From: Nigrospora sphaerica | Taxonomy: Eukaryota > Ascomycota > Sordariomycetes > Amphisphaeriales > Apiosporaceae | Assembly: GCA_018287875.1 (NCBI GenBank) | Contig: JAGVVL010000002.1 | Span: forward strand, 4,092,001 to 4,156,000 | DNA: 64,000 nt | Direction: 5' to 3' | Notes under the pieces: generated by a model | What the model saw: only the letters and a program-made list of their open reading frames with translations | What the model was told of the DNA's origin: nothing | Databases searched by the model: none | Position numbers and translations under genes: made by a program | Shown here: positions 9,475 to 49,773 of the stretch, piece by piece | Layout: every line of letters starts with the position of its first letter | How positions within the stretch are numbered: position 1 is the first letter of the stretch

Positions 9475-11219
9475 GGCGCGGATGTGGTTGCAGCAAGATA
9501 GGTAAAGAGGCAGGTAGGTGAAGCGGTATTAGCGTAAGTGGAAGAGACAGAATAATCTCTCTTTCTCTCTCCCTTCTCTTTGTACGAGCTGGGGGCAGCT
9601 TCCGAAAACTAGGCAGGCACGAGTTGTCGATAGGGCTAAACCAAAGCCTATCGAAAAGAACGGGGGGTGTATATCGCGAACGATGGCAATGCAATCAGGG
9701 GCCGGGGCCGCGGAATTGGAATCTTTTCAATTCGACCCCCCCGTACATAGGGTGTGAAGTCAATGGCTGCGACGCACTTACATCATCGATGGCTGCGCTT
9801 GCTCCAGCCGCGGCGCACTCTCGGCATCTTCACGCCGCAGGTTTCGCAGACAGGCGGCGCCCGCATCGCGACCGTCTCGTGAAACTGCAGCTACGTCAAT
9901 CGGTCGATCTCCAAGGTTCGGAACGTTGGCCGGCCCTCAAGACAAACAGGGCTGGCAGACTGGCTGCCAACAGCCCAAGCTGGTCGTCCCCCCGGCACTT
10001 CTAGAGGGAGCTTGGGCATTGTGACGTAACCTGTAATTGTTGGCTGATGAGGAACCCTGCTGAGTTGTGAAGGGAGAAGGGAATTCTAGAAGTACCTACT
10101 GTACTTGTGTCTGTGCACACATGGATCCCATGTCTGTACTTCCGTAGTCCCGCGAAAGCACGTAGTACTTTCCCCTCGGCGAGTGGCTGATGCTTCAATA
10201 CTTGTAGTTGCAGAACCCATGCATGGCCAGCGCCAACATCCAACTGGTACGTCCATAGGCACTCACAATATCCATCCCGACGGGTCGTATGGAAAATGGA
10301 TCGGCCTGCGGAAGCGCCTGCGAAAGCAGTTCGACGTTTGACCTATCGTTCATACCGACGTGTAGTCGTCCATGGTCGGAAGGCTCCAAGTTCAGGTCTT
10401 CCATTGGGCTCCCATACCTTAGCGGAGGGGCAGGCAGCGGCGGCACTAGCCACAGCCTGAGAAAGCAACCTGAGTGGCTGGCAGCGACGACAACTGGCGT
10501 CATACAATCCCCAAACTCAGGTTGGTGCGAGTAGAGTACGTCTTACTTCTTAGACGATGCCTTTGCCAGCAACAACTAAAGCAATTTGCTACTCAAGTAC
10601 GGGGTACTAAGCCGGGTTAGGACTGCCAGCACCAGGCCCGGGCACGCACGCATTGGAGGAAGAGGTCTAATACGTAACCTTAGGCAAGCTTGAAAGGTCA
10701 CCAGCCCGGCCCAACACGACGAGCCGCGGCGGGCGACTGCTCTTTCCCATATCCGGCTGCTAGTACGTAGATGCACGATTTCGATGGGGAATTTGTCCGT
10801 CTGGTCGTTCCACGCCAAGGCATAATCTCTTGTCCCTCCCTTCTTCTCTGCTTTCTTGCCCCTCAGCTAGGTTGATAGGCGCTTATTTATGTCGTTTTGT
10901 GCAAAGCGGTAAATCGGTTGTCGTACGCGTTCCCCAGCCCACATCAGGCGGGCCTTCACACCATTCCCAACCATTCACCGATTGTGCGGCCTCCGACACC
11001 ACCACGAGCGCCCGACGATACCCCTCCCAGACCAGCCGGAACCCGCAACGCCCGTCTTGCCCCTCCTTCCGCGACTGGGCTTTTACCCGGAGTCGTACGC
11101 CTGTCACTACCTCGATCGTCGACAAGAAGCCGCCGCTTTCTTTGCCCATGAAGCACCACGATACCCCGCCCTAACCCACGAATTCGTCCCGGCCCGGGTT
11201 ACGGCACCATACCGCCGAC
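9475..11219. other. Intergenic region, 1.7 kb, divergent promoters of the TMEM69-like gene and vps13
   Basis: No gene supported. The two flanking genes are divergent, so this interval should hold both promoters and 5' leaders. A GTACCTAC element lies at 10092-10099. The 200 bp before vps13 is C-rich, as is common in fungal leaders. Confidence 0.5.
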
Positions 11220-14200
11220 ATGTTGGAGGGCTTGGTTGCTGGTCTCTTGAACCGCTTCCTGGGCATGTACGTCAAGAATTTCGACCCTGCCCAGTTGAAA
11301 GTCGGTATCTGGTCTGGCGACGTCAAGCTACACAACCTGGAACTGCGGAAAGAGGCCCTGGACCAGCTGAAGCTGCCCATCAACGTTGTCGAAGGCCATC
11401 TCGGCCAGCTGACCATCATTATACCGTGGTCCAACCTGCGAGGCGCCCCCGTCAAGGTTTTCATCGAGGATGTCTTCCTCCTGGCCTCCCCCAAGGAGGA
11501 GGCCGCCTACGACGAGGAAGAAGAGGAGCGCAGGAAACAGCGCATTAAGATGGAGAAGCTGGACTCGGCCGAACTCATTAAGGAACGTTCGCAGGAGGGC
11601 CTCAGCCAGGAGGAACAGAAAAAGAGCCAAAGCTTCACCGAGAGCCTGGTCACTAAGATTGTCGACAACCTCCAGGTGACAATCAAGAACATCCACGTGC
11701 GCTATGAGGATTCCATTTCCGCCCCCGGCCACCCCTTCGCCCTGGGCATCACGCTCGAGGAGTTCAGCGCCGTCTCGACCGACGGCGAGTGGAAGCCCAC
11801 CTTCATCCAGAACTCGTCCGAAACCACCCACAAGCTGGCCAAGCTCGGGGCTTTGGCTGTATACTGGAATACCGACACGAAGCTGCTAGGCTCTGGGCGC
11901 GAGGTCCCGAATAGCGAGGCCGATGAGCTCTCACACGACGAGATGATGGGAAAATTCAAAGGCATGATCGGCAAGGGCGATAACGAATTCACGGCCAATC
12001 ACCAATTCATCCTCAAGCCCGTTAGCGGCCAGGCCAAAATCGAGCTGGACAAGACGGGTGCGGTGCATGTTCCCAAGTTCAAGGCCAATCTCCTGTTTGA
12101 CGAGATCGGCGTTGTCCTCGACGACCACCAGTATCGTGACGCCTTGATGATGGTGGATCTCTTCCACTACTTCATCCGCCATCAAGAGTACAAGAAGCTA
12201 CAGCCCAAGGATGTCTCGCCCAAAGAAGACCCACGCGCCTGGTTCAAGTTTGCTGGCAATGCAGTGCTGGGTAAGATTCACGAGCGTAATCGCCGCTGGA
12301 CGTGGGACTACTTCCGAGAGCGTCGTGATGATCGGAAGAGGTATATCGAGCTTTTCAAGAAGAAGAAGGCAAACCAGCAACTGTCCATGCAGGAAACCGA
12401 AGACATGAACAAGCTCGAGAATAAGCTTGGGTATGAGGACCTTCGATTCTGGAGATCACTCGCTCGCAACCAGCTCAAGAAGGAGAACGCCGAGGCTCTC
12501 AAGAATGCGCCCCCCAAGCAGGAGGAACAACAGGGGTGGATCTCCTGGGTGTGGGGATCCAAGCCTGCCCACGCCCCTGACTCGACCGAGAACACCCAGA
12601 TCACTGAAGAACAACGGCAGGAACTCTACGAGGCCATCGACTGGGACGAGAAACAGGCCTTGTCAGAGGCCGTTGACGCCCCGCGCGATACCGTGAAGAT
12701 GCAAGTAGAAACGTGTCTTAGCACCGGTAGCTTCACCCTGAGGCAAGACCCCCATGGTTCCAAGAAGGACCTTCTGAGCCTGCATTTCGATGTATTCAAA
12801 GCAAAAGCCATCAAGCGACTCGACTCGGTACTAGCCGACATCAGCCTCGGCGGCTTCCGAGTGAACGACGGCACGACCCCGGACTCGCTGTTCAAGGAGA
12901 TCGTCCGAGTCAAAGACTCGCCAGAGCTGAGCCAGCAGAAGCGGCTCTCCATCATTGACCTGGAGGAGACGGAACAGGCGACCTTCTTTGACCTGCAGGT
13001 AGAGCAAAATCCCCTCGATGGCCAAGGCGACTTTGCGGTTACCGCCAAACTGAAGCCCCTGGAGATCATCTGGAACCCCAACTTTGTCGTGGGAGTCTTT
13101 GACTTTTTCAAGCCTCCCGATCGTCATATGGAGTCCATTACTGCGCTGATGGAGTCGGCCGGTGCCACCGTCGAGGGTCTAAGACAGCAGACGCGAGCGG
13201 GTCTCGAGTTCGCCCTCGAAGAACACAAGACCATCAACGCCAAGCTGGACCTGCAGGCACCCCTGATCATTGTCCCCCAAAGCATCACAACCAAGACCTC
13301 GCTCTGTCTGATCCTGGATGCCGGTCACATCAGCGTCAACAGCGAACTGGTCAACAAGGACACGCTGAAGCAGATCCAGGACAAGCAGAACCAGCAATAC
13401 TCCGACGCAGACTTTAAGCAACTGGAGTCGCTCATGTACGATCGCTTCCTGGTCAAGTTGACGTCCACGCAGCTGTTGATTGGGCCGTCCATTGACGAGG
13501 CCAAGTCGCAGTTGGTCAGCAAAGATGAGACGCGCAATCTTCACATTGTGGAGAAGATCAACCTAGATTTCACTGTTGCCATGTCTATCTTGCCGAAGGC
13601 CCCTAACCTCACCAAGATGAAGATATCCGGTCACATGCCCGTCCTCCATGCCGCAGTCTCCGACACCAAGTATAAAAGTCTCATGAAGTTGATTGATGTT
13701 GCCATTCCGAAGTTTGGGGACGACACACCACAGGCACCGCAACCGCAGCAGAGGCAGTCGTTCAATAGACCGCGCCTGCTCAGCACAGCCTCGGCGCGTT
13801 CGCAAAATTCGCGCCCGCGCAGGCCCTCCAACGCCCTGTTCATGTCGCAGCAGTCGGCTGTAATTCTGGAGGATGACATGGATGACGATGAGGATTCCTT
13901 CGAGGATGCGACAGACGGAAGCTCCAACCAGCAGCTTAAGATCCAGCAGAGAACCTTCGAGTTCAAGTTTGCCGTCGACAAGCTGCAAGGCTCGCTGTAC
14001 AAAAGCGACCCCGACGGCAAGAAACCGGACGCCCTACTGGTGGAACTGATTGCTGAGAATTTTGACCTCGAGTTTTACATGAGGCCGTACGATATGGCCG
14101 CCGAAGTGTCACTTGGTTCCCTGACAGTCGATGACTTTGTGGACAACGCCTCTGCTGAGTTCAAGTCGATTGTTTCTTCCGGAGATGTTGACGACCGCCA

Positions 14201-17200
14201 AGAACACACTGAACTCGTCAAAGTCAAATTTGTTAAGGTCAAGAGGGACTCGCCCGAGTTTATGCCCATATACGAAGGGATAGAAACCAACGTGGACGTC
14301 GCCATCTCCACGATCAACCTTGTTGTGACGCGAAAGACTCTTTTGACGTTACTTGACTTCATACTGGTAACATTCACCAGCAATGATACCACGCAACAGG
14401 CGAAACGAATCACAGCCAATGAAGAGGACGACGAAGACGACAACCAAATCGAGATTATTGAGCCCAGCCCGACCCCTCCTCAGAATGAAGGTGGTTCCAT
14501 TCGTGTCAAGATCGACCTCAAGGCCATCCGAATGATTCTGAATAATGATGGGATTCGACTAGCGACTCTGTCCTTCGAGCAGGCCGATGTTGGCATCCAC
14601 CTTTCCGGCAAGACGATGCGAGTAGGGGCGAAGCTTGGCGACTTGAGCCTGGTCGACGACATCAATGCAGGCGCTTCGGAAGACTCCAGCCTCCGGCGTC
14701 TTGTCACAATCCAAGGGAACGAGCTTGCGGACTTCCGCTACGAGACATTTGACTCCAGCAATGAAAAGGCTTATCCCGGCTATGACTCTTCCATCTTCCT
14801 CCGCGCTGGCTCGATCAAAGTCAACTTCCAAGAAGAGCCGTTCAGGAAGATCATCGAGTTTCTCGTCAAGTTCGGGAAAATGCAAGCCATCTACAATGCT
14901 GCACGGCAAGCGGCTGCCAATCAGGCCCAACAGCTGCAACAGAGCACGAGTCGATTCAAATTCGACGTAATCGTGAACACGCCTATCATTGTTTTCCCGG
15001 GCCCCGTCACCCCGGGCCAGGCGAAACGTGACCTCACGACTGCCTATCTGGGAGAAATCTATGCGCAGAACAAGTTTGCGCCCCTGGACGACTCGGAGAC
15101 CTCCGAACTGGCTATGAAGCTGTCGGCTGGCATCCGGAACATTAGGTTGACATCGCTGTTCCACTACGAGAATGATCAATCTGAGGAGCTTGAGATGATC
15201 GATCATGTTGACTTGGGGTTCAATATCACCTACGCTGAACATAAACCCGGTCGGAAACGCCCTGATACGGAGATTGAGGGCAGCATGACTGACATCAACC
15301 TCAAAATCACCCAGTACCAGATGAAGTCACTGCTCGCCATATCCCGATCTGTTCCTGCTGCATTCACAACGGATGCGGAGGCTAGTGGCGAGGAAGCCGA
15401 ACGGGATGTTGACGAGGGAACCCTGAGGCGGGCCAAGACGATGACATCAATTGCCAGCGACTCTGACAACACGCTGGTGAACCTTGGCCCAGAACTTGGA
15501 TCCCGGGAGGATACATGGACCAAACTGGACCTGGTTTTTAACGTGCACAAGATCGGTCTCGAGCTCATCAATGCTCCGGAGGATCGGCCTGTGGGAGATT
15601 TGGACGCAGCGAGCCTTGCTCAGTTCTCCCTTGACGACAGTAAGCTCAAAACGCGCATGCTCGCAGATGGCGCCTTAGAGGCCGAGTTCGTCATCCAGTC
15701 CTTCACGATCCAGGACAGTCGCCAAAGCAACGCCAACAAGTTCCGCAAGATCATGACCTCGTCCAATCAGAGCGTACAGCAATTCATGGCCTCAGTGTCG
15801 ATGACCGGAGGCCAGGACAGAAGCATGATTGCCGTGGTAGCCATCGACAGTCCCAGAATCATCTTTGCGCTTGATTACGTCTTCGCCATCCAGAAGTTCC
15901 TCAGCACGAGTCTGGAGGTGAAGGAGCCTGCAGCCATCGAGGAGGAGCTGGAGGAAACCCCGGAGGGCTCAGAGACCGACTCAATGCAAGTTGAATCGAC
16001 GGGAGACAAGCCTCGGAGGCCGCAGGGTGCGCCACCAGGCCTCGACAAGAAGAAGGACTCGGCGATGAGCGTTTCTTTCCGCGCCAACGTCGTGGATGCT
16101 CAGGTCATTCTGATTGCGAATCCTTTGAGTGCGAGTTCCGAAGCGATTGTTCTGGGCACCAAGCAGGTGCTCCTCTCACAACAGCATGCTTTGACTTTCC
16201 AGGTTTCAAAGGTTGGCATGTTTCTCTGCCGCATGGACAAGTTTGAGTCCTCTCGCCTACGTGTTCTTGACGACTTTTCGATCCAAATGTCGATGGACAG
16301 CTCGCAGCCGAACAAGACCAACATGCATCTTGATATCGAACCTTTGATCCTGCGATTGTCGCTGCGCGATATTCTGTTGGTCTTGCAGATCTTTAGCAAG
16401 GCTTCAGAGATGTCCGCCAAAGATTCCGACAAGCCGCAGCCAAGCGCCTCGGACAGGAAGGTGGCCCAGCTGCGGCCTGACAACCTCAAGAAACGAACAG
16501 CCAGTGGGCACGCGCAATCTACCTTGGCCAAGCGGACGAAAGCGACCAAGCCCAGCGGGACCGTTGCAACTAGGGGTAGGAAAGAGTCGCAGTCAGCGCC
16601 GGCTCATGATGTCAGCAAGGGACCTAAACGCCAGGAAGAAATGACGGCCACGATCGAGGGCATACGCGTCGTTTTGATAGGTGATCTACACGAACTGCCC
16701 ATCTTGGATCTGAGCGTCAAGAGCTTCACAGCGTCGGCGGCCGACTGGTCCAGCAATCTGAAAGCCGAGGCGGCGATCGACATGTACATCAACGTCTACA
16801 ACTTCGCGAAGTCTGCATGGGAGCCGCTTCTCGAGCCATGGCAGGTTGGTTTTGGAGTTGCGAAGGGCCAGGACGGTCTTTTGTCGATCGATCTTCAGTC
16901 CAAGAAGACCTTCGAGATCACGGTTACGACGGCGACCATTGCCCTTGCATCCAAGTCCTTCAACTTCTTGACGGGCGACGAGGACGTCCTCGAAAAGTCG
17001 CGCAGCACTGAAGCGCCATACAGAATCAGGAACTACACCGGATTTGACGTCGTCGTGCAGGCTAGGAACCAAAGCAATACGGAGAACATAACGGCCAAGC
17101 TCGGGGATGGCGACGAGGCGCCTTGGAGCTTTGAGCACTGGGAAAAGATGCGCGAGAACATCTTGTCGGAAAGTAATACTTCCAACACCGTCAGCGTGCA

Positions 17201-20200
17201 GATCGAAGGCAGTGGGTTCGACACGGTCCAGAATATCCGGCTCAACCGCGAGGGAGAGTACCTCTATAGTCTGCGGCCGAAGATGGACGATACCCTCCAC
17301 CGACTTCTAGTCGAGGTTACTCTGGGAAGCGACAACGTCAAATGCGTGACACTTAGGTCTCCATTAGTCGTGGAAAACCAGACTCAGATTCCCGTGGAAC
17401 TTGGTGTCTACGATGTCGAGGAAGGCCATCTGCTGAAGATCGAGAAGATCCCGCCTGGCGAGAGCCGACCGGCCCCCGTGGCTGCATGCTTCGTCAAATC
17501 GCTCCTCGTGCGACCCGACTCCGGCTTTGGCTATGCCTGGTCATCAGAGCACCTCTGGTGGAGGGATCTCATGAAGCGACCGACGCGTACCTTGACATGC
17601 AAGGGAGAGAACAATGACCCCTTCTATTTCCAGATGAATACCAACTTTGATCCAGGCCACTTCCTCAACGGGTAGGTTACTTTACACGCCGGTACTGTTC
17701 GCATGCTTACATCGAGACAGCAAATATCCTTACATGAAGATCAAGCTTTCTCCGCCCATCGTACTGGAGAACCTGCTGCCCTACGACTTCAAGTACCGGA
17801 TTTATGACAAGGACACCAGGAAGGACTGGACCAACTTCCTCCGGAAAGGCGGCGTGAGCCCTGTCCATGTCGTTGAGCTGTCGCACCTCCTCTTGATGAG
17901 TGTTGATATGCAAGACACGGTGTTCAAAGCCAGTGAATTTGCTATCATCAACCCTGGTGGCCAAGAAGACTTCCGCAAAGAGCACAAGCTAATATGCAAA
18001 GACGCCGAGGGTCTTCAACTCCACCTGCACCTTCACTACTTCCGAGTTCCCGAAGGTGGTGGTGCCTTCACAGTCACAGTCTACAGTCCCTACGTCGTTC
18101 TCAACAAGACGGGCCTGGACGTCAACATTCGTGCCAAGCAGCCGCTTCAGCATGTGAAGAGGGCAGCGGGGCAATCGCCGACCATGGATAACTCGGACAG
18201 GGAGCGGCCCAAGGCCCTCCCTTACATGTTCTCGTACCCGAGCGACGATCAGAGAAACCGGGCTCTCCTCAAGGTTGGCGAGTCCGAATGGAGCAAGCCC
18301 CAGTCTTTCGACGCAATTGGCAGTACTAGCGACGTGATCCTGCCGGCTGTCAACAAGAACGCAGAGTACCACGTCGGCATTACAGTACAGGCTGGCGAAG
18401 GCAAGTACAAGATGACCAAAGTGGTCACCTTGGCGCCGAGGTTCGTGGTCAAGAACAAACTCGGCGAAGACATCAACCTGAGGGAGCCTGGGTCTTCCAA
18501 CATTATGACTCTGAATCCCGCTTCTCTACAAGCCCTCCACACCCTACAAAGGTCTCCAGCGAAACAACTAGCCCTTTGCTACCCGGGCATGGATAACCAG
18601 TGGACGTCACCCTTCAACATCTCGGATCTTGGCACAACTCATATCAAGATCGCAAAGGCCGGCCAACGCCAGAAGCTTATCCGCGTCGAGACCCTGATGG
18701 AGGATGCCACAATCTTCCTACACATCAGCATGGAGACGAAGGCATGGCCGTACTCGATGCGAAACGAAAGCGACACCGAATTCGTCTTCTTCCAGGCCAA
18801 CCCCAACGTGGAAGACGATGGGTCAGAGGATCGCTCCGGCTGGCGGCCTATTAAGTATCGACTGCCACCTCGTAGCATCATGCCGTACGCTTGGGACTTT
18901 CCTGCGGCGAAACACAAAGAGATCGTCATCACGGCATTCGGAAAAGAGCGGCATGTCAAGCTTGCAGAGATTGGCAACCTGATACCCATGAAGTTTGTGA
19001 GCAGTTCGGGCGGGCAAAAGATTATCGACATCAACGTTGCCGCCGATGGCCCCACGCAGACCTTGATCTTGTCCAACTTCAAGCCAAGCAAGAGCCTGTA
19101 CCGACAGCGGACTGGGACGGGACTGAGCTCCAGCAGCACTGGTGGCTTCGAAGTCAAGGACCTCAACTCGGGGACTACCTTCCAGGCGCAACTTAAGCTC
19201 TCGGGCATTGGTATCTCGCTCATTAACAATTCCTTGAAGGAGCTTGCATATATCACGTTCCGGAATGTAGTCCTGAGCTACAAGGAGTCGGCACTCTACC
19301 AGACCATCAGCACGTCGGTCAAATGGATCCAGATCGACAATCAACTGTACGGTGGCCTGTTCCCCATGGTTCTCTACCCCAGCGTTGTGCCGAAGCAAGC
19401 GCAAGAAACCGAGATGCACCCCTCTCTCCACGCACAGGTCACGCGGGTTAAGAATGACGACTACGGCGTCCTGTACGTCAAATACGCCACAGTGCTACTG
19501 CAGCAAATGACAATCGAGCTGGACGAAGACTTCATCTATGCCGTCCTAGACTTCACCAAGATACCGGGCGCTGCGTGGACGGAAGCACACGAGGGCAAGC
19601 TGTGCGACGAGAGCCTGGATCTCCCTGAGCCCAAGCAGGAACAGTCGGGCCAGGACATCTACTTCGAAGTGCTCAATATCCAGCCCATGCAGCTCGATCT
19701 CTCTTTCATGCGGACGGAGCGGGTCAATGTCGAGGACAAGACGTCGTCCCGAAACCCTGTCATGTTCTTCATCAATGCCATGACCATGGCCATTGGAAAC
19801 GTCAACGATGCGCCCATCCGGCTGAATGCGCTCCTGCTGGAGAACGCGCGGGTTTCGGTGCCGGTCCTTGTGCAGAACCTATCGAATCATTACAGCCAGG
19901 AGGTCATCTACCAGATCCACAAGATCATCGGCAGCGCTGATTTCCTGGGCAATCCAGTCGGCCTCTTCAATAATATCAGCAGCGGTATCACGGACGTCTT
20001 CTACGAGCCGTACCAGGGTCTAATCATGTCAGATAAGCCCGAAGACCTCGGTCTGGGCATTGCAAAGGGCGCCGCAAGCTTTGTGAAGAAGTCGGTCTAC
20101 GGCTTCTCCGACTCATTCTCCAAGATCACGGGCAGCTTTGGAAAGGGATTGGCGGCGGCTACCTTGGACAAGCAGTTCCAGGACCGCCGTCGCATCACGC

Positions 20201-21359: not shown

Positions 21360-24300
21360 CTAGTCCCGAAGGGATGGTTCCATGGCGTGCCCGTCCGAAA
21401 CGTCGCCCGGGCCGGCGTGGCCCGCTTCCGAAGGCGGTGCCGACGTGGCGGGGGTCCCGAGCCGCGAGGACTCCATCGAGGTCGAGAGACGCTCGGACAC
21501 GACGTGTTCGGCCACGGCCAGACACACTAGTGATTGAATTCCGTCAGTTCGTGTTCGGGCTGACGCCGTGACGGTCGGAAAGAATCAAGGGGTATGAAAA
21601 AAGGGGGGCGGGGAGAGGGAGGATGTGAGCACTTACGGCGATCAAGGCTATCGGCGGCCAAGATTTTAAGCACGGCAACGTCCTGGCCCAGCGCGTGCCA
21701 GAACCAGTTGCGTATCTCGACGGCGATTAGCGAGTCGATGCCCAGCTCGGCGACGCCACGGTGCCTGTCGATGTCGGCGCGGGGCAACCGGAGCAGGGTT
21801 TCGAGCCGCTGCAGAAAGGGCGCCATGATGAACTCGGCAGCGGCCGCGGGATCCGTCAAGTCCTCGAGCTGGTCCGCCAGGTCCCGGTCCGACGGCAGCG
21901 CCGCAGTCGCGGGCCCGCCGTCGTCGTTGTCGAGGGCGAAATGACCAAAGCGCGGGTCCGAATGCCAGTGCAAGGGGTTGGGCGAGCCACGGCGGAAACG
22001 CCGCAGGCCCGTCGTGATGTCGACAGGCTGACCGAGCCGGTCTGGCTGGCCGGCAGCGACGGCCTCGAGGAACATGTGGTGGAGGTCGCGCTCCGATACA
22101 GGCGGGTAGCCCTCCCTCTCGAGCCCGGCGTAGAGCTCGGTTTTCTCGCGGTGCAGCAAGCCCAGTCCATAGATGACCCCGATGTTCAGCACGGAGCCGG
22201 CAAGACCCCTTCGGCGTCGATTGGCCGCCAGGCCGTTCATGTACATGTTGGCGGCGGCATAGTTGGACTGACCCGGGTGTCCACCGATGGCAGCAAACGA
22301 CGACGTCATGATGAAAAAGTCGAGATGCACCTCGGCGAAGGCATCATCGAGATTCTGGGACCCTCGAACCTTGGGCCCAAGAACGCGCTGGAACCGGTCG
22401 GCCGTCATCTGCGCGAAGACGCTGTCTTCCAGCACATTGGCACCGTTCACGACGCCAGCAACCGGGGGCAGCGACTCGGCGAGCTCTCGTGCAAAGGCGA
22501 AAACATCCGCTCGGCTGGTGATGTCCAGTCGCTCTACTTGTACTTTGGCACCATGTGTCGTGGCGACCTCCTCGCACCACCGCGGTGACGTGTCGGCGTT
22601 ACGGCTCGCTAAGACGATGTGGCGAGCGCCATGTTCGATCAAGAGACGGGACAGGCTTTGTCCAAGGTCGCTTGTCATCCCAAAGAGAACATAGGTTTTA
22701 TCTCCCCTAAAGGATCCGCAGCCAGCTCTTGGCTTAACCAACTGGAACACCTCTCGCTCCGCCCGCCAGTCTATTATCTCAAAACAAATCGGGGCACCTC
22801 TCGCGGCCAAGAATTTCGGCAGGGACAAGCACTCCCCTTCGGCAAGAGCCGGCATACTATGTGTTGATAAGATCCGCCGTTCTGCCATGCCAACAGCTGT
22901 GTGCCAAATGCTGCCCAGAGTCGCCGATGATGCAAATTGCAACCCGCTGGCGGTATGTTGTGATAGGTACGTTGAGTTCCGTGGGGACAGTTTCGCCAAA
23001 CGTTTGGACAGTTCGTGTCCTCTCGGAAGCAGATCACACACAGTTGCACCTCCGGGGGGGTAAACGGCCTTGATTTGCGCATCGGTAGCCCGTACATGGA
23101 TGGCTTTCGAAGCACATCCCACATGGCTGTCATGCCCCGAGGCTACGAGGCAGCTTGTGACCTCGACGCCTTTGAAGGCCCCAACAACGCATTCTCTGAA
23201 AGCTTCGTCCGGTCCGACCAGAACGATAGGCTGTGTGGGTGCACTTTCTCGGAGCGCCAATGCAGAGACAAGACGTACCAGGAGCCTTAAGAATTCGAGT
23301 TCGTTTGTGACTGTACTGGGTACAGTGGATGCTGCGGAACTGGGTACCGTGACATATGACGAATTCGTCGTCGAACATGCCACCATACTAACTCCAGAAA
23401 CCACGTCCACTCCCAAGCAAACGTAGAAGGGGGTGTCTAATGGTAGCAAGGCCTGAGAGCTGAATGAAACCTGAAGTAAGTGGCGGCCAGGGAGGATGCT
23501 TCTGGTCACTTCAAGGTTGGAAGCTTTTGTTTCAAATGCCAATGACCCGAGCTCGGCCTCTCCGGTATGAACGACTTCCACGCGTGTCCGTAGGGTGTTG
23601 AGTGGGCTGTGTACGACCCTTCTGATCGAGTTCAACCGGTCATTGGATGCTTTCAAAGGCATCACCCGTGGTATCCAGCATCGGCCGTCGTAAACATGCA
23701 TCTCGGGCTCCATGGTGTGCAACAAATTCGGGGAACCGGGGCTCTCCTCGATCAGCCGTGAGGTGTAGCGAGACACCAGACGAGCCGCATCTTCGAGAGA
23801 TTCCAAGTCCAATATCTGTAGGCGCAAGTTGGGGACCTCGGCAACAAGTGTACGGGCAAAACCGAACGTGGCGCTGTGGTGAGGATTATCAGCTCGGGCC
23901 CCCTGCACAACCCACAGTACTTTCATACTTGGTCGGAGGAGCTCTCTGAGTTTATGAAGCCGTGTATCGGTCATGTTAGTGACCATGGGTTGGTCGAGGT
24001 CGGCGAGCATGACGACTGTTGTGCAGGAGCTCATGTCTAATGAGCTGACTTCTTCAAGTGTTGGCCGTGCCACCACCGAGTAGCCCGCCAAAATTGCTCG
24101 ACTCTGCACGTCTCGACCGATACATATGATGCTCTCTTCCGTGCCACCGACAATAAGAACCTCGGAACTCCCTTTGGGCCAACGAGAGAGTGGCGCCAAT
24201 GGAACGGCCCGTCGAATGTGGATTGCAAACCCCGATGTATGGCGTTGGTCAGAGTATCGGGCCTCGGCGGTGAACCCACACGACTCCAAGATTTTTGGCC

Positions 24301-27300
24301 ATTCTAGCAACGGAACACTACCAGGAATGTTTGGGCCAGTGCCACCCAGATTGCGATATGGCCCCCTCCTGTTGCCGAACGCCGAATGGACAAGTACCAA
24401 GAATCCGCCGCCAGTCATTGATGCCCTGATATTCCTCAGTGCGACCGCCGGAGGCTGTGCCTCCAGAATAGAGGCAGAGACAATTACCAGATCTAAGGAC
24501 TTGCCGGTGTCGATTTGGGGGCCTATGCCCTCGCTCAGGTCGATGAATCTGTGGTGGACCTTTGAGTTCTTCGCAATAATTTCTTCGTCGGGTTGTGAGC
24601 TCATTCCAATAGTCAGAGACGAGAATGACGTCTTCAGCCCCCCTCTCATTAGTTCATTGGTAAACGATTCGGACTCGACCAAGCTGAGGACGTCCATGTG
24701 TGCAAATCGGTGAACTAGCTGTTGCACGATACGAACTGTGTGCTTATTGCCGCAGGTCTCGTGATGGGTGGCTTCCGTGATGGATGGGAGGATGCTGGGT
24801 ATCACAGTTGGGCAGGCTTTACCCAAGTCCATGACAACATTCAGACAGCTCCGGTACGGCGAGCCGTCAATGAAATGGCTAATGCTCTTGGCCGTATCGT
24901 CGCTTCCAGGTCTGAAAGTCGCAGAATGGCTGCCGGGGCTGAAGAAAGCAACCACTCTGTTGAGGCTTTCAATAAGCATGGGGTCGACGGTGCTCTGGTT
25001 ATCGTCGGCCGGTCGTACAATCTCATCTGTCGGATCGACGTCCATGACGGTGTGCAGGTAGAGCTCGTAGTCGTCCTCGGCTCGGGTGTGAGCGATTGCT
25101 GTTACCGACAGCCCTTCGATCTGGATCTCGGTTTGCCCATCACCATTGAAAATTCCAATGTCTGTCGTGAATGTCGCTTTCGATGTCATGGATGCGGGTG
25201 ACACATTGACAAGTTTGGTGTCGACGGCGAGGGACGTGTCAGAACCCGAGCTCGGTATGGCTGTACAAGTGGCCAGGTTGAACCGCACTCGCTCGATGCG
25301 GGTTGGAAGAAAGGACGTCCAGAGGGACCTTGGAAAAGTCAGTAAATACATCCCCCCGAGTTTTATGGGTGTTAAGAGTTCTTACCTATCTCCTGGTGAT
25401 GCATAGGACAGAAACGCTGACTGAAAGCAGCTATCCAGCGTCGCCGGGCTGACAGCCAACGATGTCGTATCTTGGGCATGGCGCTTTCGCAACGTAGTTG
25501 ACGAGAAGTTGGCTCGGCGTCGAATCGACTGTATGGAACGGAACGGCCCCGTGTAAACGAGCCCGGTCTGGTCCATCATCCTGTAAAAGGCCTCGGGTTT
25601 CTCTGTGAGCGTCTCCGACAAGCTTGGCTGCCGGCGTGGCAGGGCCTCGGCATCGCCTTCGCCGAGATAAGCCCGCACACTGCCTGTCATGTTCTTCCTC
25701 ATGCTCCGGGTTCCATTCGCGGGACACGAGGACAAGTTGAAGTCTGCCTCCAGTACCGATGCCACTTTGCAGTCCTTTGGCGGCGTGTTAACACGCAAGG
25801 AAAACAACACCTCTGTTCCTGAAGAGCCGGAGTCTATACCTATGCCGCTCAGGATGTCCATCGCCTCTATCTCCACTACCGAGGCAGGTCGCTCGGCAAG
25901 GAGAGCCTTTGTTGCGTCAAGGACCATGACGCAATACGCCGAAGCTGGCAAAAGATGTTCTCCCTGAAAAGTGTGATGCCGTATCCAGGGGACCGTATCC
26001 GGCTTTAGGATGTTACGCCATCGAAGCTCGAAGTCGTTATCGTCGCGCGTCCTGACACCTAGCAGCTCGTGGGGTGCATCTTTCTTGAGGTGGTATTTTC
26101 GGGATACGCGAGACTCTCGATAGTGAGTCTGAGAATGGTCCCAAGGATAGGAAGGCATGTCAAGCAACCGAGACGCGGACAGCGAGCGATTCGCCGTCAG
26201 TTCGATATAGCGGCCCACGTCCACGGATGCAGGGCCATAATGCGTCCACATGAAACCCAAGAAGTCGGACAAGGCCTGCTGGTCATCGACGAACCTCTCC
26301 AAAACACCAGCGTAAGGAACGGGGCTGCCGAGGAGCGCTTTTGACGTTTGGCTGACGGGCCCCTTAAGGGCCGGGTGGGGGCCGAGTTCAACAGCGCCAT
26401 CAAAGGGGCCAAACTCTTCGATGGCAGTTTCAATGGCATCTTGGAAGCGCACCGTTCGGACCATGTTGTCTCTCCAGTAGCCGGCACCGGCATCCCTCTC
26501 TCCCGTCTGGGCGGTGCCGTAGACACTCGATACCCAGTTCGCTTGATTGCTTCCCGAACTGAGGTTGATGGCACAACCTCCCAATGCCCTGACATAGGCG
26601 GCAGCGGGCCGATTCATGTGGGGAGAGTGGTACGCCGTGTCAACGACGAGCAGCCGGGCAAACTTGTTCTGCTCGATGAGCATATCTCGCGCCCGATGGA
26701 TCATACCACGGTCGCCCGAGAGAGTCACGCTTGACGGCGCATTGGCAGCAGCTACACAAAGCCTGCCGCTGAAAGTTGGGTTGCGGCAGAAGGCTAATGC
26801 TTCGCGTTCCGATAGGCCCGCGGCCAGCATGCCACCTTTCTCGCCGTCGACGCCGCCGGCAAGATGGGCGTACAGGCCCCGGTAGTAGGCGATAAGAATG
26901 GCATCCCGTGCCGTCACTCGGCCGGCGGCGTAGGCCGCGGCGATTTCGCCCGACGAATGGCCGACAACGGTATGGAAGCGGAGCCGAGCAGCCCTCAAGA
27001 CGTCACACAAGCCGATCTGCAGGGCCGTGCACAGGGGCTGCGATATGGCGGCCTCATGAACCCGCGAGGCTTCCGGGGCGGCGAGGAGCTGACCCTCGAG
27101 CGTCCATGCGGGCGGGTCAGGGCATGTGCTCAGAACGGCGTCAAGGGCGCGGATGGTCTGGCGGTAGACGGGGTGGGCCGTCAGCAGCGCGCTCGACATG
27201 GTCGGCCACTGGGCGCCCTGTCCGGTGAAGACGGCGAGTACACGGGGCGCCGGACGCGCGGAATGGGCGTGACGTCCAACGCCGCTGCCCTCGGTTACGT

Positions 27301-29121
27301 CGTTGGCGGCGGAAGCCATGGCGGCAAGCGCTTGGGCGCGGGACGAGGCGGGTAGGGCGAGGCGGTAGGGCAAGGCGGTGCGCCGCGCGACGAGGTTCCA
27401 AGCCAGCTCCTCCAGCTCGACGTCGGGGTGGCACTCCAGATAGAGGCGCCACTGGCGGACGACGGCGCGCAAGGATTTAGGCGAGGCAGCCGACACGAGC
27501 AGCGGCAGGCAGGGCGGCGGCCGCTCGGGGCCGCGGCGCCGCCCAACAAGAGGCACGCGGCCGTGGCGAGGGTCATACGACTCGACGATGGCGTGGGCGT
27601 TGGTGCCGCCGAAGCCAAAGCAGTTGACGCTGGCGCGACGCGGGCGGCCCTCGGGCGGTTCGGGCCACGGCAGCGACGTCGTGGGCACATGGAGATGAGG
27701 TTGGTAAAAGGGTTCGACGGTCGGGTTCAAACGTTGGAGATGAAGATTGGGCGGCACGCGCCCGTGTTTCATGGCTTGCACTACCTTGAGCAGGCCCGCC
27801 AGCCCGGCCGCGCCTTCCGTGTGGCCGACCACCTGTTTTTCGCCATTGCACGTGAGCAAACCGTGTGACTTCCGTCAAGTGCAGGCCGTTTCATTTCGTA
27901 CGTACCGTTTTGACCGACCCGACCAGCAGTTTGCCTTCGGCCGTCGAGTTGCCACGTGCTTCCGGCACGCCCGCGTCCGGCCCTCCGAAGAAGGCCCCGT
28001 GGATCGCCGCCGCCTCCACGGGATCGCCCACCTGTGAGGCGGTTTAGTCAGCCCATCCGACCGGCCCCTGTGCTCTTCTCGTGCAGCGCCACGGCAACAG
28101 GGGAGGAAACGTCCAAGACAAAAACGACGGCCGGGGTCTCTCTCACCTTGGTCCCCGTGCCGTGCGCCTCAAAGTACTGGCAGCGGTCGCGCGGGTCGCG
28201 CGGGTCCAGCCCGGCGCGGCGGTACGTGGCGGCGATGAGGGCCGCCTGGGCGTCGGGGTTGGGCATGGTGATGCCGGGGGTGCGGCCGTCGGAGTTGACG
28301 GCGGTCTCGCGGAGGACGGCCTCGACGGGGTCGCCGTCGGCGAGGGCGGCGGCCAGGGGCTTGAGGAAGAGGGCGGCGACGCCCTCGCCGCGCGCGTAGC
28401 CGTCGGCGCCGGCGTCCCACATGCGGCAGCGGCCTGTCGGGCTGAGCATGTGCAGGCTCGACTCGACGACGAACTGCTCGGGCGCCAGCATCAGGTTCGC
28501 GCCCGCCACGCACGCCCGTGCCGTCTCGCCCGCCCGCAGGCTCAACACCGCCTGGTGCAGCGCCACAAGCGACGAGCTGCACGCCGTGTCGATGGTCATG
28601 GACGGCCCCCGCACGTTGAGAAAGTACGACACGCGGTTGGCCAGGATGGACCGCGCGTTGCCCGTCGCGTAGTACTGGCTCGTCGTCAGCTCGTCGCGTT
28701 GCGACAGCGTGTCGTAGTCGGCCGTCATGACGCCCGCAAAGATGCCCACGTCGGTGCCGCTCAACCCCTCCAGCGTGTACCCGGCCGCCTCCATGGCTTC
28801 ATACACGACTTCGAGGAGGAGCCGCTGCTGCGGGTCCATGGCCTCGGCCTCGCGCGGCGTGATGTTGAAGAACCCCGCGTCGAAGACGCGGTGGTCCTGC
28901 TCCAGCCAGTAGCCATGCGTGGCGTTGGTCGTGCCATGGTGTTCGCCGTCGGCGTGGTAGAAGGCTTTTGCATGGAACCGGTCCCCCGGTACTTCTTTCG
29001 AGAGGTCTGTTGGGTTGCTCAGGAGATCCCAGAACTTGGAGGGCGACGTGGCCCCGCCCGCAAACCGACAGCTGCTGCCGACTATGGCGATGGGCTCACC
29101 ACCTTTGCGTTGTTTGTGCAT
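21360..29121 (-). CDS. Highly reducing type I polyketide synthase (KS-AT-DH-psiMT-psiER-KR-ACP)
   Basis: Five exons on minus: 28147-29121, 27906-28031, 25386-27832, 21637-25328 and 21360-21526; 2468 aa in frame. KS is intact: D-T-A-C-S-S-S (Cys181), E-A-H-G-T-G-T (His320), G-H-T-E-G (His371). AT has G-Q-G-A-Q-W and G-H-S-S-G (Ser660). DH has [10 protein letters not shown] (His987) and L-D-S-C-F-Q (Asp1167). The methyltransferase fold is recognisable, but the SAM glycine motif is replaced by V-L-S-L-V-E-S-E-S. The ER region lacks a nucleotide-binding glycine motif. KR has [10 protein letters not shown] and catalytic S...Y in S-N-Y-A-A-A-N. ACP has L-G-I-D-S-L (Ser2382). This resembles the LovB/PKS-NRPS-type clade with a dead ER, but without a condensation domain. 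Product unknown. The last exon is least certain: a 110-bp intron ending TAG gives [10 protein letters not shown] after the ACP; reading through stops at 21527. Confidence 0.93.
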
Positions 29122-48999: not shown

Positions 49000-49017
49000 T
49001 GCTATCAGTGCGGTTCG

Positions 49018-49076
49018 CTGGAGTGATGTTAGTAAAATGCGTAACACTTACGTCCGCCAGTTGAGGAGAAACTTAC
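49018..49076 (-). other. 59-nt GT-AG intron inside the tRNA T-loop
   Basis: The insertion begins GTAAGT (49076-49071). It contains a perfect branch-site consensus, TACTAAC (49034-49028), with its branch A 11 nt before the last base, and ends CTCCAG (49023-49018). These are the three spliceosomal intron signals, and the length matches protein-gene introns in this window (49-80 bp). Precise removal restores T-loop TTCGAAC. A second GTAAGT lies inside at 49050-49045. tRNA-splicing-endonuclease introns have no such signals. Confidence 0.85.
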
Positions 49077-49102
49077 AACGCACGCGGATTGCTCCAGTGG
49101 TG

Positions 49103-49115
49103 TTTAAAACGAAAA
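49103..49115 (-). other. Canonical 13-nt tRNA intron after position 37
   Basis: T/A-rich insert between G37 and position 38 of the anticodon loop, the universal site of nuclear tRNA introns. Its TTTTAAA end can pair with the UUAA around the anticodon, as tRNA endonuclease substrates do. Confidence 0.8.
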
Positions 49116-49152
49116 CTTAAAACCACCGCCTTAACCACTCGGCCATGATAGC

Positions 49153-49773
49153 TCTGGTATATCGGTAAGTAAAGCTCCGCTTATTACGTACTGTGTTCTG
49201 CGCTAACTGCGCAACATACCGAAGTCGCCCCGAGCTCTTTCCCTCCACGACAACGAGTGCAGAGCCCCGACGGGGTTACTCGCCTGCATTGTTCTCCTCG
49301 TCGCATTTTGTAATTTGTCCGTTCAAGCGAGACACAGTTCCCCCTTCAAGCGGCTAGTTTCTGTCATCTCCCATGTGTGGTGGACGAGGGCAGCGCAATT
49401 GCAACCCCGCTTCGTTGGGCTTACTGAGGGAGCTCTCCAGCCCAGCCTCGATGGCGAGCAAGGTGGAAACGAGACTGACTGTGAGTGAGTGGTGGCGGGA
49501 CTCGACATTTATGTATATCTTTGCCTCCCCCCCTTACCTTGGAGTTACGTGGATGGATACGTTCAGTCATAGAGCTCTTGCAATGGACGGGGAAATCGGG
49601 GTTGTTTCCTTGAGACTAATAGCCGGTTCTACGTCGTAGCGCCGACGGCGGCATTTGTCTCACGAGCCATTATCCAGTCTTGGCGGGTTCCGAGCAGCAG
49701 CAAACGTACCCGGGACCGTTCGACAGCATCCATGCCGACGGCCAGACGGACATGACCCAATGCAACGATTTCC
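49153..49773. other. Intergenic region upstream of tRNA-Leu, 0.6 kb
   Basis: No gene supported. It is the 5' flank of the tRNA and 3' flank of the alpha/beta hydrolase, both on minus. Confidence 0.5.

Follow-up and report, generated by a model that had tools for sequence, protein, structure and literature searches.

Two leucine tRNA genes of a filamentous ascomycete, those for tRNA-Leu(UAA) and tRNA-Leu(UAG), are each interrupted by a 59-nt insert carrying splice signals. On the evidence of the sequence, we consider it very probable that these inserts are short U2-type spliceosomal introns lying in genes transcribed by RNA polymerase III (Pol III). The preliminary description of this DNA had read the insert in tRNA-Leu(UAA) as a spliceosomal-type intron in a nuclear tRNA gene, and that reading is now supported by the boundary of the insert, its signals and length, the lack of a bulge-helix-bulge motif (BHB) at its junctions, our finding no second tRNA-Leu(UAA) gene in the assembly, and the recurrence of such an insert in tRNA-Leu(UAG).

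The tRNA-Leu(UAA) gene and its T-loop insert

The window (the whole 64,000-nt stretch of DNA analysed) belongs to a 51.6-Mb assembly of 33 contigs (G000). Judged from VPS13 similarity, the host is a filamentous ascomycete near Apiospora: the first exon of this gene (open frame 11175-17675) finds its best named match in Apiospora arundinis, at 83% identity, and the next matches come from other Apiospora and from Xylariales, with one further relative at 96%. The window also holds polyketide-synthase domains (ketosynthase C-terminus, acyltransferase, dehydratase, ketoreductase and carrier protein), which extend over two adjoining open frames at 21527-27874 on the minus strand. The tRNA-Leu(UAA) gene runs on the minus strand from its 5' end at 49152 to its 3' end (A73) at 49000, with the following features.

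49000..49152, minus strand: whole, unspliced tRNA-Leu(UAA) gene, 153 nt (ARAGORN Leu(taa) once the insert is removed; cloverleaf scan)
49116..49152, minus strand: exon 1, positions 1-37, anticodon UAA (read from the sequence; ARAGORN)
49103..49115, minus strand: canonical 13-nt intron at 37/38, of the tRNA-splicing-endonuclease type (ARAGORN anticodon-loop intron)
49077..49102, minus strand: exon 2, positions 38-55, with 3' end GTGCGTT (ARAGORN; cloverleaf scan)
49018..49076, minus strand: spliceosomal-type intron, 59 nt, in the T-loop at 55/56, GTAAGT...TACTAAC...CAG (deletion scan; splice signals)
49028..49034, minus strand: TACTAAC branch-site match, branch A 11 nt from the 3' splice site
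49000..49017, minus strand: exon 3, positions 56-73, 18 nt (ARAGORN; cloverleaf scan)
49128..49145, minus strand: intact A box, TGGCCGAGTGGTTAAGGC (A-box pattern)
49180..49184, minus strand: ATAAG upstream element at -32, common to other tRNA genes of the genome
48985..48990, minus strand: T6 run 3' of the gene, resembling a Pol III terminator

ARAGORN reported no tRNA in either the unspliced gene or the window, and the unspliced gene scored 18.6 bits with the Rfam tRNA model, below its gathering score of 29; once the 59 nt were removed, ARAGORN returned tRNA-Leu(taa). The same program reported an anticodon-loop intron of 13 nt, bearing out the earlier claim that this tRNA has an additional, endonuclease-type intron, with a printed register 3 nt off from 49103..49115. 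To place the insert by structure, we scored all 8,905 single deletions of 1-130 nt for the acceptor stem (7), the T-stem (5) and five conserved positions of the T-loop. Exactly one deletion reached 17/17 (7/7 acceptor, 5/5 T-stem, TTCRA loop), and it is the one that runs from GTAAGT to CAG, in agreement with the claim that the cloverleaf is perfect only when 59 nt are removed between positions 55 and 56. As tRNA structure alone fixes this junction, the boundary of the insert is independent of any search for splice sites.

The signals themselves lie where the preliminary description had placed them, with GTAAGT at the start, TACTAAC 11 nt before the end and CAG at the end of 49018-49076. When the insert was shuffled 300,000 times, the strict set of signals (GTRAGY...ACTAAC...AG) never appeared and a relaxed, much looser set appeared nine times; splice signals are thus very unlikely to have fallen at the structure-defined junction by chance. 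The lengths of this insert and of those described below are within the 54-107 nt of 13 ORF-supported protein-gene introns in the window, a comparison that is heuristic and partly circular, since those introns were picked by ORF continuity, motif and a 45-110-nt limit. Independently of this, tblastn with an Apiospora protein placed one intron of VPS13, about 50 nt long and lying between 17672 and 17722. A group I or group II intron is not indicated: no Rfam family at all scored above its gathering score in the window, and 59 nt is too short for the catalytic core of either group.

A second insert, in tRNA-Leu(UAG)

The sole tRNA-Leu(UAG) gene found also bears an insert.

G000:C12:3116411-3116576, plus strand: tRNA-Leu(UAG) gene (L035)

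Its insert is again 59 nt long (GTAAGC...TACTAAC...CAG), lies between positions 25 and 26, and accompanies a 25-nt canonical intron. ARAGORN misnamed the genomic sequence Ala(cgc) and returned Leu(tag) when the insert was removed. In a deletion scan of this gene, 15 solutions among 7,257 restored the D stem, a five-pair anticodon stem and T33; a leucine anticodon resulted only from a 59-nt deletion, which has three equivalent registers, one of them GT-AG. Both the A-box and the B-box sequences of this gene are whole.

The cores of the two leucine inserts align with a score of 4.0, against a shuffled mean of 2.3 (s.d. 5.0). As the inserts show no clear likeness beyond their signals and occupy different positions in the tRNA, we regard them as two events. 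We also considered that they might be homologous, introner-like copies; this was unsupported, with the core alignment close to the shuffled values and no other copy returned by a DNA search with the locus. The anatomy of the sequences, the unique, structure-defined boundary in tRNA-Leu(UAA), the splice signals and their recurrence in a second gene are established.

A candidate tRNA-Ile(UAU) gene and searches for further cases

A probable third case, found once, is suggested by its sequence to be a tRNA-Ile(UAU) gene with a spliceosomal-type insert.

G000:C12:6340391-6340549, plus strand: candidate tRNA-Ile(UAU) gene (L108)

This locus has an acceptor stem of 7/7 (one G-T pair), a D stem of 4/4, a T stem of 5/5 and a downstream T8 run, and the sequence CTTATA, that of an Ile(UAU) anticodon loop, is followed by a canonical-type intron. 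Its identity is read from the anticodon, ARAGORN naming the wrong tRNA there. The anticodon stem is broken by 56 nt (GTGAGT...AACTAAC...AAG), with a boundary that is not fixed by structure: 132 solutions among 6,854 deletions gave four or five anticodon-stem pairs, and GT-AG removal leaves a T31-T39 mismatch, where moving the boundary by one base would allow five pairs. The T-arm plus acceptor of this candidate occurs a single time in the genome at up to three mismatches.

Considered together, the three inserts are 56-59 nt long (59 in UAA, 59 in UAG, 56 in the Ile candidate) and all contain ACTAAC. Their 5' ends agree with GTRAGY: GTAAGT in UAA, where structure fixes it, GTAAGC in UAG, in one of the three equivalent registers, and GTGAGT in the Ile candidate, at a boundary that structure leaves free. 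The branch sites are TACTAAC, TACTAAC and AACTAAC, respectively, with the branch A 11, 12 and 10 nt from the 3' end of the insert.

Four genome-wide patterns were compared with reversed controls. The pattern joining ACTAAC-AG to a T-arm gave 36 matches (96 in the control) and yielded both tRNA-Leu(UAG) and the Ile candidate; a T-loop pattern with splice signals gave 18 (21 in the control), with strong signals only in the gene of the window. For a CTAAC pattern (147 against 342) and a GCTRAC pattern (128 against 86), candidates were drawn from the matches listed. From the lists of all these patterns, 21 stretches were chosen by eye and read; the Ile candidate was a tRNA with an insert, and none was seen in the other 20. 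With three of the four patterns below their reversed controls, such inserts are rare at best. As pattern searching is not exhaustive, the genome may hold further insert-bearing tRNAs; the Rfam tRNA search of the genome scored 63 of 1,243 candidates.

Copy number and codon usage

Pattern and ARAGORN searches of the assembly found seven leucine genes with anticodon AAG (L088-L094), six with CAG, two with CAA, one with UAG and one with UAA; for the AAG set and two of the CAG genes, which ARAGORN labelled Val, the anticodon was read by eye. A-box patterns allowing up to two mismatches gave 53 and 23 matches, of which 52 and 23, respectively, were read or run through ARAGORN and contained one tRNA-Leu(UAA); the remaining match of the 53 sits on a bacterial contig, C19. 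A DNA search with the tRNA-Leu(UAA) locus returned only itself, in a search that is insensitive (a Leu(CAG) query did not recover Leu(UAG) among its matches). The preliminary description had called for a count of other tRNA-Leu(UAA) genes; within these searches of the assembly none was found, and an intact second copy is disfavoured. Nor did the genome enumeration find a second tRNA-Leu(UAG).

Some of these searches touched sequences of other kinds. Contig C19, which extends past 832 kb, carries dense bacterial-type tRNA genes (L001-L008), some with an encoded CCA, and has protein matches to NusG, ribosomal protein L11, RNA pyrophosphohydrolase and DapF; from its sequence it looks bacterial, not fungal, and would be a contaminant or an endosymbiont. 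A partial copy of the 3' half of tRNA-Leu(CAA) lies downstream of that gene (L030, about 1493-1760), with an additional two-mismatch match at C5:1830058. Both canonical introns of the Leu(CAA) genes contain TACTAAG..CATTAG, but these introns are accounted for by their canonical position.

Only a UAA anticodon reads the UUA codon. Conserved coding sequence contains TTA codons (3 TTA and 21 CTA among 3,200 VPS13 codons), so a decoder of UUA is needed, and the tRNA-Leu(UAA) gene is probably essential. CUA might also be read by I34 of Leu(AAG), which makes tRNA-Leu(UAG) less strictly needed than tRNA-Leu(UAA).

Promoter elements

The 59-nt insert splits the B box of the tRNA-Leu(UAA) gene, and no B-box-like site (up to two mismatches) was found on the same strand between -248 nt and about +850 nt of the 5' end. 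This split B box without a nearby substitute is a difficulty for TFIIIC binding and is the main weak point of a Pol III reading. Upstream of the tRNA genes, [AT]TAAG occurs at -45..-20 in 19 of 50 regions, compared with 3 of 50 at -70..-45 and 1 of 50 farther upstream (shuffled control: mean 4.2, maximum 9). An ATAAG-like element at about -30 is common to many nuclear tRNA genes of this genome and recalls the upstream TATA elements of Pol III genes. Transcription of tRNA-Leu(UAA) may lean on the A box and this upstream element, or may proceed by RNA polymerase II (Pol II). The promoter architecture of the Schizosaccharomyces pombe U6 gene differs from that of tRNA genes.

Proposed maturation and alternative explanations

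We propose that a short U2-type spliceosomal intron came to sit in the sole nuclear tRNA-Leu(UAA) gene found. The gene would be transcribed by Pol III through its A box, ATAAG element and T6 terminator; the spliceosome would take out the 59-nt intron, restoring the T-loop, and the tRNA-splicing endonuclease and a ligase would remove the canonical 13-nt intron. The tRNA-Leu(UAG) precursor, and perhaps that of tRNA-Ile(UAU), would follow the same route. In this proposal we infer all four of the polymerase, the spliceosome as the remover, the order of the steps and the function of the mature tRNA. Spliceosomal removal from a Pol III RNA is made plausible by the precedent of S. pombe U6, as described in PMC8917221. 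Counting against the proposal, splicing would be in competition with rapid 5' and 3' processing and with decay of the Pol III tRNA precursor, the 3' exon of tRNA-Leu(UAA) is just 18 nt long, and the Ile(UAU) product has the T31-T39 mismatch.

Spliceosomes normally work on Pol II RNA, and with the B box of tRNA-Leu(UAA) split and no substitute found near it, the spliceosome might act on the insert in a Pol II transcript, Pol III being blocked. We think this unlikely: the A box, the upstream ATAAG and the T6 terminator resemble those of other tRNA genes of the genome, the A-box and B-box sequences of tRNA-Leu(UAG) are whole, and the spliced U6 RNA of S. pombe is a Pol III product (PMC8917221). 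A further alternative is that tRNA-Leu(UAA) is a pseudogene broken by an insertion, with UUA decoded by a tRNA gene missed by the searches or by the assembly. Insertions in the D and T arms of eukaryotic tRNA genes have usually been taken as pseudogene marks, in families with many isodecoders (PMC4090602). The split B box would suit that explanation, and the count of one copy depends on the reach of the searches of the assembly, of which the DNA search is insensitive. Yet the scored stems are whole and the A box, ATAAG and terminator T-run are retained; no sister copy was found, the A-box patterns (up to two mismatches) leading to one tRNA-Leu(UAA) and the locus search to itself; and the sole tRNA-Leu(UAG) gene found bears the same kind of insert. 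We regard this pseudogene explanation as quite unlikely.

It is very improbable that the inserts are ectopic introns of the endonuclease type, in the style of archaea, Cyanidioschyzon and the Guillardia nucleomorph, with GT-AG ends by coincidence. Introns of this type do occur in D and T arms in other organisms, 25/26 being an archaeal site (PMC4090602), and tRNA-Leu(UAA) does carry a canonical endonuclease-type intron. At the insert junctions, however, no BHB was present: the best central helix had 3, 2 and 2 of 4 pairs (UAA, UAG and Ile, respectively, the UAA and UAG inserts also being tried in more registers), and 2,000 random cut pairs gave 3 or 4 pairs in 1,220, with 3 the commonest. The strict splice signals, moreover, appeared in 0 of 300,000 shuffles for each of the three inserts. 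An assembly or sequencing artefact, a concern raised in the preliminary description, has a practically negligible chance of being the explanation, as one would hardly expect an error to set GT, the branch site and AG precisely at the junction of the tRNA, or to do so again in a second gene. We thus retain spliceosomal introns in Pol III tRNA genes as our reading.

Relation to known introns

Ascomycete nuclear rDNA has spliceosomal (mRNA-type) introns in a structural RNA gene; there, in contrast to tRNA-Leu(UAA), the transcript is made by Pol I and the host is a large RNA in rDNA. The S. pombe U6 snRNA gene has an mRNA-type intron that the spliceosome removes from a Pol III transcript (PMC8917221). 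That arrangement is the likeness to the present case, which is read from sequence; the differences are that the U6 host is an snRNA rather than a tRNA and that it has no second, endonuclease-type intron. Ectopic tRNA introns are described from archaea, Cyanidioschyzon merolae and the Guillardia theta nucleomorph at noncanonical positions that include the D and T arms, sometimes together with a canonical intron (PMC4090602, PMC3978253). As described there, these depend on BHB and endonuclease or are 3-24-nt inserts of unexplained splicing, whereas the inserts of this fungus have spliceosomal signals and no BHB. In the main text of the tRNA-intron review, the string "spliceosom" is absent, and ectopic 25/26 and T-arm sites are given as those of archaeal-type or unexplained introns (PMC4090602).

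The preliminary description had known of no spliceosomal intron in a tRNA. This agrees with our literature search, from which subscription journals were mostly excluded: none was reported in the titles or abstract openings of the best matches. The novelty would lie in the host RNA, a tRNA, for which we know of no example, the intron class and its machinery being known. Four scans with an exon pattern gave 0 matches in viral and bacterial/archaeal contig collections, which hold no fungi and are uninformative on fungal relatives.

Implications

We give even chances to a broader proposal, in which the rarer-codon isoacceptors found singly (Leu-UAA, Leu-UAG and Ile-UAU) would need two unrelated splicing machineries, their introns having been gained independently at different positions. 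Decoding of UUA, and perhaps of CUA and AUA, would then depend on the spliceosome, and splicing of tRNA-Leu(UAA) would rejoin a B-box sequence that its gene never carries whole. Such genes escape tRNA finders that admit an intron solely in the anticodon loop: ARAGORN is blank at tRNA-Leu(UAA) and wrong at tRNA-Leu(UAG) and the Ile(UAU) candidate. The split B box in a seemingly essential gene offers a natural test of Pol III recruitment. In teaching, the introns of tRNAs are kept apart from those of mRNAs, each kind with its own enzymes, and a tRNA that needs the spliceosome would cross that line. If our reading is true, (i) tRNA precursors made by Pol III can be substrates of the spliceosome, (ii) translation of rare codons would be tied to the supply of spliceosomes, and (iii) tRNA genes would be targets of spliceosomal intron gain.
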